A DNA stretch of 64,000 nucleotides, taken from positions 62,001 to 126,000 of the forward strand of contig NZ_JAAXPA010000014.1 in the NCBI RefSeq assembly GCF_012396235.1, written 5' to 3'. Shown piece after piece: positions 28,336-30,258 of the stretch (its first letter is position 1; every line of letters begins with the position of its first letter). The position numbers were made by a program, and so were the translations under genes. Source of the stretch: Rhodococcus opacus. Its GTDB lineage: Bacteria; Actinomycetota; Actinomycetes; Mycobacteriales; Mycobacteriaceae. The notes below the pieces were generated by a model. That model did not search any database. It had not been told where the DNA came from and was given only the letters and a program-made list of their open reading frames with translations.

Positions 28336-28375
28336 AAAAAGAACCGGCGTCCTGGATTCCAGGACGCCGGTTCTT
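28336..28375. terminator. Bidirectional terminator between gntR and tRNA-fMet
   Basis: A 17-bp stem (28339-28355 with 28359-28375) with loop ATT. Five U residues follow on the minus strand, serving the tRNA; it can also end the GntR transcript. Confidence 0.92.
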
Positions 28376-28378
28376 CAG

Positions 28379-28455
28379 TGGTAGCGGGGACAGGATTTGA
28401 ACCTGCGACCTCTGGGTTATGAGCCCAGCGAGCTACCGAGCTGCTCCACCCCGCG
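28379..28455 (-). tRNA. Initiator tRNA-fMet (anticodon CAT)
   Basis: The minus-strand 77-base sequence begins CGCGGGGTGGAGCAG. The anticodon stem GGG-CTCATAA-CCC with three G-C pairs and the unpaired first base (C1 opposite T72) mark it as an initiator tRNA. CCA is encoded at 28381-28379. Confidence 0.95.
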
Positions 28456-28579: not shown

Positions 28580-28724
28580 TTTCGGGCGAAATCTGTAACG
28601 CTGCCGAGACCTGAAACTTCGGGGACGACCTGGGAAAACAGCGGTCGTTCGTCCCAGCATTTGGACGCCCGTCACAGAAAATCGACCCGTGACCATTCCG
28701 TGATCACCGCGTACGTTCGTTGCC

Positions 28725-28816
28725 AGCCCGAAACTACCGGGCAACGCCGACCCGCCGCAGCTCGACCTGCCCCCGCGGGATTCGGAATCCCGACACCTCG
28801 AGGGGCAGGGACGAGG
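28725..28816 (+). ncRNA. Conserved rpf leader RNA motif, copy A
   Basis: The 5' leader of the first rpf. A GCCCG/CGGGC hairpin with an AAACTAC loop is followed by GCCG-CCCGCCGC, then CTGCCCC pairing with GGGGCAG around an inner hairpin containing TTCGGAATCCC. Nearly the same sequence precedes the second rpf (29525-29617). Some segments loosely recall the ydaO c-di-AMP riboswitch known upstream of actinobacterial rpf genes, but its central GGGGAACC and GGGGUGAAUC blocks are not seen. Together with the promoter this fills the gene-free stretch 28456-28898. Confidence 0.6.
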
Positions 28817-28898
28817 ACAGATCGACCACCGGGTCGGCACACCAGCCGTTACCGCACCACCACCACCTCGTCAGCAGGCGCGGAGAGGAAACAACCAC

Positions 28899-29231
28899 AT
28901 GACCAATTCCAGCATCGTCAAGCGGACCATGGGCGCAATCGCACTCACCGGAGCAGTCATCGGAGTGCCGCTCGGCCTGAGCACCGGCACCGCATCGGCC
29001 GCTTCCGGAGACTGGGACGCCGTCGCAGCGTGCGAGAGCAGCGGCAACTGGGGCGCCGACACCGGAAACGGCTTCTCGGGCGGTCTGCAGTTCACCGACA
29101 GCACCTGGGCAGCGAACGGCGGCTCCGGCTCGCCGGCCAACGCATCGCGCGAGGAGCAGATCCGCGTCGCCGAGAACGTCCTGGCAACCCAGGGACCCGG
29201 CGCCTGGCCGGTCTGCGGACAGTACCTCTGA
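28899..29231 (+). CDS. rpf: Secreted resuscitation-promoting factor, minimal form
   Basis: A 110-residue secreted muralytic enzyme. The signal peptide covers residues 1-34 (cleavage after TASA). The Rpf domain then fills the rest, with catalytic E46 in the ACESSGNW motif, the GGLQF strand, and the conserved pair C45 and C106. It cleaves peptidoglycan during regrowth. It has no LysM, G5 or other wall-binding module. GGAGAGG precedes the ATG. Nearly identical to the first part of the next rpf: a tandem duplicate with its own leader and terminator. Confidence 0.95.
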   Translation: MTNSSIVKRTMGAIALTGAVIGVPLGLSTGTASAASGDWDAVAACESSGNWGADTGNGFSGGLQFTDSTWAANGGSGSPANASREEQIRVAENVLATQGPGAWPVCGQYL

Positions 29232-29248
29232 TCCGCACTTTGCTCGAA

Positions 29249-29288
29249 GTGCCCCGCGCGCAGCACGACTGCGCGCGGGGCACTCCTG
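29249..29288 (+). terminator. Terminator of the first rpf
   Basis: A perfect 15-bp stem (29249-29263 with 29269-29283), loop CACGA, then TCCTG. It separates the two rpf genes into independent transcripts. Confidence 0.85.
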
Positions 29289-29363
29289 AATAGCGAGTCC
29301 TCGTCTTACACCACCGGGACCCGTTTTCCTGCCATTTCGACGTGAGCCGCTGCACAAAATCGT

Positions 29364-29379
29364 GGTGATCCCCACCACA
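29364..29379. promoter_or_regulatory. CRP/GlxR-like site upstream of the second rpf
   Basis: GGTGA-TCCCCA-CCACA is a weaker match to TGTGA-N6-TCACA (one mismatch in each half). It lies 340 bases before the second rpf start, matching the 335-base placement of the first copy. Confidence 0.45.
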
Positions 29380-29524
29380 TAACAGCAGGGTAACGAATAG
29401 ACGCCGAAACGATATCGAGACACTCTGACCTGCAAAGACAGCGATAATTCGCCGTCGCAGCCGGACAGCTGTCCACCATTTTCGCCAGGTGAACTGCGGG
29501 CAAAGCTCCCGTACGGTCGCTCTC

Positions 29525-29617
29525 GGCCCGAAACAACCGGGCGAAAGCCGGCCCGCCGCTGCTAGCTCTGCCCCGCGGGTTCGGAATCCCCGAAACCTTC
29601 GAGGGGCAGGGACGCGG
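29525..29617 (+). ncRNA. Conserved rpf leader RNA motif, copy B
   Basis: The counterpart of 28725-28816, with GCCCG-AAACAAC-CGGGC, GCCG-CCCGCCGC, CTGCCCC...GGGGCAG and TTCGGAATCCC. Differences fall mainly in loops and junctions, as expected for a folded RNA under selection. It ends ~87 bases before the second rpf. It occupies the middle of the gene-free stretch 29289-29703. Confidence 0.6.
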
Positions 29618-29697
29618 CACAGACTCGCAGCCCGGCGTGACGACGCGAACGTCGTCGCCCGCAGGCCGGCCACGCCAGCAAGCGCGGAGAGGATTGA

Positions 29698-30258
<561 letters not shown>

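Follow-up and report, generated by a model that had tools for sequence, protein, structure and literature searches.

A predicted pseudoknotted leader RNA before two tandem rpf genes of Rhodococcus opacus, probably a coreless relative of the rpf-type c-di-AMP riboswitch

Rpf proteins are peptidoglycan-cleaving enzymes that assist dormant actinobacteria in returning to growth, and because of these roles their expression must be tightly controlled. Here we describe the leaders of two rpf genes found in a window of 64,000 nucleotides (the whole stretch of DNA that was analysed) from the 8.1 Mb genome of Rhodococcus opacus. The genes are arranged head to tail on the forward strand, and both products match the PF06737 profile: the first, of 110 amino acids, occupies 28899-29231, and the second, of 184 amino acids, 29704-30258. 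One leader element lies 5′ of each gene, with the conserved unit spanning 28726-28813 (copy A) and 29526-29614 (copy B) by model match, and BLAST gives copy B 85% identity to copy A over query bases 7-102. That structured leaders stand before both rpf genes, as the initial annotation had observed, is confirmed, and the four sequence blocks that it described as shared were all found where it had placed them; the pseudoknot described below is a feature beyond those it had described. A tRNA gene (28382-28455, reverse strand) adjoins the copy A/B leader, and many relatives (among them L012, L018, L020, L034, L087, L094, L102, L110 and L119) have a tRNA in a similar position, so that it is a conserved neighbourhood of the rpf locus of the window. 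Between this tRNA and a regulator gene lies a long, perfect, GC-rich palindrome (GAACCGGCGTCCTGGATTCCAGGACGCCGGTTC, 28341-28373), probably a terminator serving both strands, which also gives a sub-threshold P17 match (28.6 bits against a gathering cut-off of 45).

Sequence comparison indicates that both leaders carry one structured RNA, made up of a 5′ hairpin (P1), a stem (P2) and a pseudoknot (PK) in which a strand before P2 is paired with the apical loop of P2. All of its parts are on the forward strand. In copy A, P1 (28726-28742) pairs 28726-28730 with 28738-28742 and is followed by the pseudoknot strand PK5 (CCGACCCGC, 28747-28755), a weak candidate for the 5′ strand of a closing helix P0, in the place of the ydaO P1 (28755-28761), the P2 5′ strand (CTGCCCC, 28767-28773), the pseudoknot strand PK3 within the P2 loop (GCGGG-AT-TCGG, 28775-28785) and the P2 3′ strand (GGGGCAG, 28802-28808). 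The bases just before the Shine-Dalgarno sequence, a possible 3′ strand of P0, lie together with GGAGAGGA at 28874-28889. In copy B, P1 (29526-29542) pairs 29526-29530 with 29538-29542, and is followed by PK5 (CCGGCCCGC, 29548-29556), a similarly weak candidate for the P0 5′ strand (29557-29563), the two P2 strands (29568-29574 and 29603-29609) enclosing PK3 (GCGGGTTCGG, 29575-29584), and the pre-Shine-Dalgarno bases, again a possible P0 3′ strand, with GGAGAGGA (29677-29693). P1 and P2 are drawn from the model and covariation, the pseudoknot strands from duplex tests and covariation, and the pre-Shine-Dalgarno bases from the sequence and the P0 test.

A BLAST search with copy A finds a match in 26 of 28 genomes of the genus (E <= 0.01); three of 15 BLAST places examined are not before rpf (L045, L047 and L048), all of them weak (E 4.1e-4 to 1.6e-3). 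The initial annotation had recommended searching with a covariance model; such a model, R1, built from 8 sequences, matches 130 of 401 genomes of the family at E <= 0.001, in 13 of 31 genera and with up to five matches per genome. Having taken 40 places (L085-L124) of our own choice from among the R1 matches listed, we typed 61 loci in all, and an Rpf reading frame lies downstream in every one. Seven of the 68 model matches were kept out of the typing, namely the near-duplicate copy B of L012, the partial L044 and five weak matches with E between 0.0019 and 0.021; among the latter, L041 3178-3265 is possibly copy A in a decayed state. Start codons in the typed loci were picked with a preference for an upstream GAGAGG motif, so the occurrence of GGAGAGGA in 55 of the 61 arises partly by construction. 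A pattern scan of named genomes returned 108 stretches, and R1 matched 25 of the 80 examined at E < 0.001, every one of them in a record titled Rhodococcus, Rhodococcoides or Prescottella; the remaining 55 stretches are presumably fortuitous.

The duplication of the leader had been understated, for further copies stand before other rpf genes of the same genome. Four of the six PF06737 matches of the source genome are preceded by the element, with a weaker copy before a third rpf gene (G000:C45, L038) and another before an rpfA-type gene that has a c-di-AMP riboswitch (G000:C15, L085). At L038 (G000:C45:10280-10343; 28.1 bits, a weak score) the P2 and PK strands are recognisable and the 5′ hairpin looks decayed. 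Models R1 and R2 find no element at two PF06737 matches on C22, which stand in tandem (G000:C22:137042-138416). Copies A and B lie side by side in several further genomes of the genus by BLAST, and the pattern scan places both on one contig of Rhodococcus wratislaviensis NCTC13229. Since the two copies have been kept together in several genomes, very recent duplication is not the cause of their likeness.

The promoter side of the element is also conserved. A -10-like box begins 14 bases before P1 in both copies (TACGTT at 28712-28717 in copy A and TACGGT at 29512-29517 in copy B, both forward), and a TANNNT box starts 14 bases (45 loci) or 13 bases (10 loci) before P1 in 55 of the 61 typed loci. 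Within the 20 bases searched before P1 the box occurs in 56 of 61, against a shuffled mean of 7.4 and a largest shuffled value of 17. With a -10-like box at this distance, P1 probably opens the mRNA, the transcription start probably being at P1 itself or a few bases away. Upstream of copy A lies the direct repeat GTGAC-N6-GTGAT (28689-28704, forward), like the MtrA motif by resemblance only, and a repeat of this form is found upstream in 39 of the 61 loci (block-shuffled mean 0.7). The motif was taken from PMC6265350, which places rpfA, rpfB and rpfC of M. tuberculosis among the MtrA targets; that MtrA acts at the loci studied here is a guess from the sequence.

Folding energies of single sequences differ between the two copies, being exceptional for copy A (z -5.0, with 0 of 200 shuffles as good) and unremarkable for copy B (z -0.8, 45 of 200 shuffles). 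Because copy B is not unusually stable, the case for structure rests on comparison rather than on stability. In alignment A5, of 51 sequences, we scored 5 pairs in P1, 9 in P2, 9 in PK and 3 in a small loop helix. The initial annotation had named a lack of covariation among homologous leaders as an argument against its reading; instead, 19 of the 26 pairs have changed on both sides. The number of cells with two-sided changes is 97, compared with 19.5 after shuffling (0 of 500) and 5-26 when the pairing is slid along the alignment. Cells are paired in 98.0% of cases for P1 and P2, 89.2% for PK and 83.5% for the small helix. All of these values except that of PK are flattered, because the model to which A5 was fitted comprised P1, P2 and the small loop helix but not PK. 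Within PK, the pair 63-108 forms in 25 of the 50 rows, for which bulges that shift the register are partly responsible.

The pseudoknot was also examined without any alignment, by comparing the duplex energy between the pre-P2 strand and P2 loop of each leader with that obtained from swapped partners. Swaps did as well in 0 of 2000 trials with 61 loci, 0 of 2000 with 37 non-redundant loci and 5 of 2000 with 17 non-redundant loci, and three control pairings in stand-alone leaders gave no signal. Strands that have changed and yet still pair include CCGGUUCGU/GCGAGCCGG (L042), UCCGGGCCCGC/GUGGGUCCGGA (L089), ACCACCCCGC/GCGGGUGUGGU (L105) and AUGCCGGUCUCGC/GCGGGGUCGGCAU (L112). Other Rfam families were rejected: the best sense-strand match to any of them on either leader with E up to 10, to dauA at 28752-28841, reaches 19.9 bits against a gathering cut-off of 45 (E 4.7).

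As to what this RNA is, the initial annotation had named two options, a diverged ydaO and some other RNA regulating in cis. Our results place it between them: the leaders share the periphery of the c-di-AMP riboswitch (ydaO, RF00379) and are without its core. The RF00379 search that it had suggested yields no match to either window leader, at gathering or with E up to 10. Its failure to see the central ydaO blocks agrees with this and with our search for the core blocks GAACCCGNCAGCU and GGGGUGAAUCC at 2 and 1 mismatches, in which the window leaders gave no sense-strand match and a sole antisense one at 29691-29701. RF00379 at gathering likewise matches 0 of the 45 sources that hold the 50 coreless leaders, and the 3′ core block is found in 0 of those 50 leaders versus 11 of 11 leaders with core. 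The reading as a divergent ydaO element with a hidden core was rejected on the RF00379 and core-block searches.

The shared periphery emerges from 11 element-bearing rpfA-type leaders of the family in which RF00379 scores above gathering. In those leaders the P2 of the element is the P2 of the riboswitch, and the module supplies the riboswitch with its 5′ extension as well. The distance separating the element from the start codon is 167-187 bases in leaders that have the core and 44-188 bases (median 83) in coreless ones. P2 is optional in the c-di-AMP riboswitch, and its presence is not decisive; in the window leaders this hairpin, which in the riboswitch lies between the 5′ strand of the closing helix and the core, is present and covarying. 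At L043 (1372-1586) and other rpfA-type loci RF00379 appears to misplace the first ydaO P1 strand: the Rfam alignment of L043 sets it inside the P2 loop, which we read as an effect of the long P2 because the 3′ strand GGCGC can be matched by GCGCC or CGCC immediately ahead of P2. The ydaO construct quoted in PMC5393176 begins AUCGCUGAACGCGGGGGACCC, a start consistent with a P2 between GAA and the G-rich strand. Among the RF00379 matches listed, rpf-linked riboswitches score 41-58 bits versus 70-103 for most, and some rpf-linked members may fall below the cut-off.

Outside the family, model R2 has no match in 298 order-level and 296 class-level genomes under strict filters, both draws taking in family members, and relatives there were detected solely through the c-di-AMP core and the pairing logic. 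A class-level PF06737 search matched 113 of 148 genomes, and the 3′ core block lies upstream of rpf in 22 of the 30 class-level loci examined. These rpf-linked riboswitches with core have a long P2, the loop of which tends to start complementary to the bases before the riboswitch P1. The pairing strands are unrelated in sequence from one to the next, as in ACACCCACC/GGUGGGUGU (L317), CUGCCGGG/CCCGGCAG (L307), GGCGGUGC/GCACCGCC (L316), GGAUCCGU/ACGGAUCC (L297) and GUGACAGC/GCUGUCAC (L320), and in 16 such leaders from 15 loci outside the family the observed pairing is reached by 0 of 5000 swaps. The 5′ hairpin is weak outside the family relative to shuffles (-10.08 versus -7.96, sd 1.24), by a helix finder that overlooked or wrongly placed the known 5′ hairpin of several members of the family; six outside leaders (L298, L305, L306, L307, L320 and L322) have a hairpin before PK5 and a TANNNT box 12-14 bases upstream. 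A descriptor scan of eight rpf leaders without the core block, together with two positive controls, gave no separation from shuffles.

A first contrast with the c-di-AMP riboswitches of other genes often misplaced the non-rpf P2 (matched versus swapped 295/2000), and the contrast was repeated with a single rule for both sets, 6 places being skipped. Under this rule the pseudoknot is strongly supported in rpf-linked riboswitches (n = 36, z -9.0, 0 of 3000 swaps), whereas it is not supported in those of other genes (n = 36, z -0.75, 680 of 3000). The median P2 interior is 52 bases in the former and 25 in the latter. These comparisons indicate that the pseudoknot goes with rpf and not with c-di-AMP riboswitches in general. 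One long-P2 c-di-AMP riboswitch (L290, G453:C8) stands before a gene without the Rpf motif and is possibly an rpf-type leader before another gene.

The Rpf domains themselves divide according to whether their leaders have the core. We built a tree of 82 domains over 77 columns, from the 61 typed loci and 21 further rpf genes with core, leaving out rpf genes with neither feature. One branch, with support of 99/94, has all 50 coreless loci on one side and all 32 with core on the other, which requires one change against a shuffled mean of 25.5 (0 of 500). Since rpf leaders with core occur in many families of the class, the simple reading is that the core was lost a single time in the ancestor of the coreless Rpf paralogues, which would then have multiplied while keeping P1, PK and P2.

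We favour, as fairly probable, an explanation in which the two leaders are related to the rpf-type c-di-AMP riboswitch, have no core and act on their own rpf genes in cis; such regulation by the element is likely. The frame would have been kept after loss of the core because it has a job of its own. In the mechanism that seems to us the likeliest, P1 and PK5 would be transcribed first, folding as the RNA emerges. While PK5 is held in the P2 loop, P0 would form against the pre-Shine-Dalgarno bases, and once PK5 is freed, for instance to a downstream partner as in copy A, the leader would pass to its other state. The output would be rpf translation start or early termination, and the trigger is probably something other than c-di-AMP.

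Several observations bear on the steps of this model. The stretch that separates PK5 from P2 serves, in rpfA-type leaders, as the riboswitch P1, whose 3′ strand directly precedes the Shine-Dalgarno sequence; its counterpart in coreless leaders is often complementary to the pre-Shine-Dalgarno bases (CACCAU/AUGGUG at L106 and UAC/GUA at L110, by eye). Matched against swapped partners, P0 is weakly supported, at 383/3000, 69/3000 and 20/3000 with rising stringency, and an earlier P0 test with an over-wide strand gave no signal. The alternative nine-base partner of PK5 in copy A (CGGGTCGGC, 28830-28838, forward) is used in the predicted minimum-energy fold, of a kind that cannot contain pseudoknots, and is not general across the family loci; pairing of PK5 with downstream bases is modest, at 9/3000 and, in the least redundant set, 243/3000. 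The predicted Shine-Dalgarno sequence is mostly paired, its unpaired probability exceeding 0.5 in 7 of 61 loci under a model without the pseudoknot. In Streptomyces, c-di-AMP bound to the rpfA leader reportedly brings about premature termination (PMC10117811), which makes termination as possible an output as translation.

A simpler role, which we consider unlikely but worth keeping in mind, is that the module is a folding or stability scaffold that shields the 5′ end of the mRNA and neither senses nor switches. Such a scaffold would suit the position of P1 at the presumed 5′ end, the retention of the module when the sensor core was lost, and the weak support for the switching helices. However, a simple 5′ hairpin would suffice for stability, and the pseudoknot has been kept across families despite changing sequences and is tied to rpf rather than to riboswitches generally. 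It is very unlikely that the leaders serve instead as a site, on RNA or DNA, to which a regulatory protein common to rpf genes binds. Conserved loop letters besides the pairs, and the MtrA-like DNA repeat, could be so explained, but the repeat sits upstream of the element, and inside the element sequences vary while pairing stays, pointing to structure at the RNA level; recognition of that fold by a protein is possible. Highly improbable, too, is the view that the leaders still work as c-di-AMP riboswitches after extreme divergence: they have the frame and downstream genes of the rpfA-type riboswitches, but RF00379 and the 3′ core block are missing from window and coreless leaders alike, and most of the leaders are too short to hold a core. 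Mere chance or recent-duplication likeness of GC-rich sequence, to which the composition and the ordinary stability of copy B might point, can practically be dismissed in the face of the distribution, the covariation with its compensatory changes, the alignment-free test and the pseudoknot outside the family.

Beyond the reading of each leader as a coreless riboswitch relative, we put forward a broader and more doubtful proposal, which may well prove wrong: that the 5′ hairpin and P2-loop pseudoknot form an independent rpf regulatory RNA domain in several actinobacterial families, sensing an input other than c-di-AMP, that rpf-type c-di-AMP riboswitches are two-input devices, and that an entire radiation of Rpf paralogues within the rhodococcal-mycobacterial family is run by the first input alone. 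If the leaders are coreless riboswitch relatives as we favour, many small rpf paralogues of the family have a structured leader that Rfam 15 leaves unannotated, and rpf-linked members of RF00379 conserve a helix absent from the Rfam alignment examined. Mutations in the pseudoknot could then be used to tell c-di-AMP control apart from a second control exerted on the same transcript, and the clade without the core would serve as a natural experiment on what stays useful in a riboswitch once its sensor is lost. A frame that seems to have lost its sensor, standing before two rpf genes, suggests further, unrecognised RNA control of cell-wall enzymes. We found no description of the pseudoknot or of coreless rpf leaders in the open literature searched, and a prior description is possible.

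Among known systems, the RNA switch in the 5′ UTR of M. tuberculosis rpfB (PMC6009663) is likewise a structured leader of an rpf gene, but is described there as transcriptional and seemingly limited to a subset of pathogenic mycobacteria, and we liken the two by description only. The second domain of the NAD+ (nadA) riboswitch (PMC7708056) is also riboswitch-like, with the ribosome-binding site in a regulatory helix and ligand binding that has escaped detection there; it differs in being another RNA, in tandem with a ligand-binding domain. The c-di-AMP riboswitch before rpfA-type genes differs from the window leaders, which are without its ligand-binding core and without an Rfam match, and the RF00379 alignment examined has no pseudoknot with the P2 loop, unlike the rpf leaders. 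The two have in common the downstream gene family, the 5′ hairpin, the pseudoknot, the long P2 and apparently the site next to the Shine-Dalgarno sequence, and at 11 loci of the family the element and the riboswitch form a single leader.
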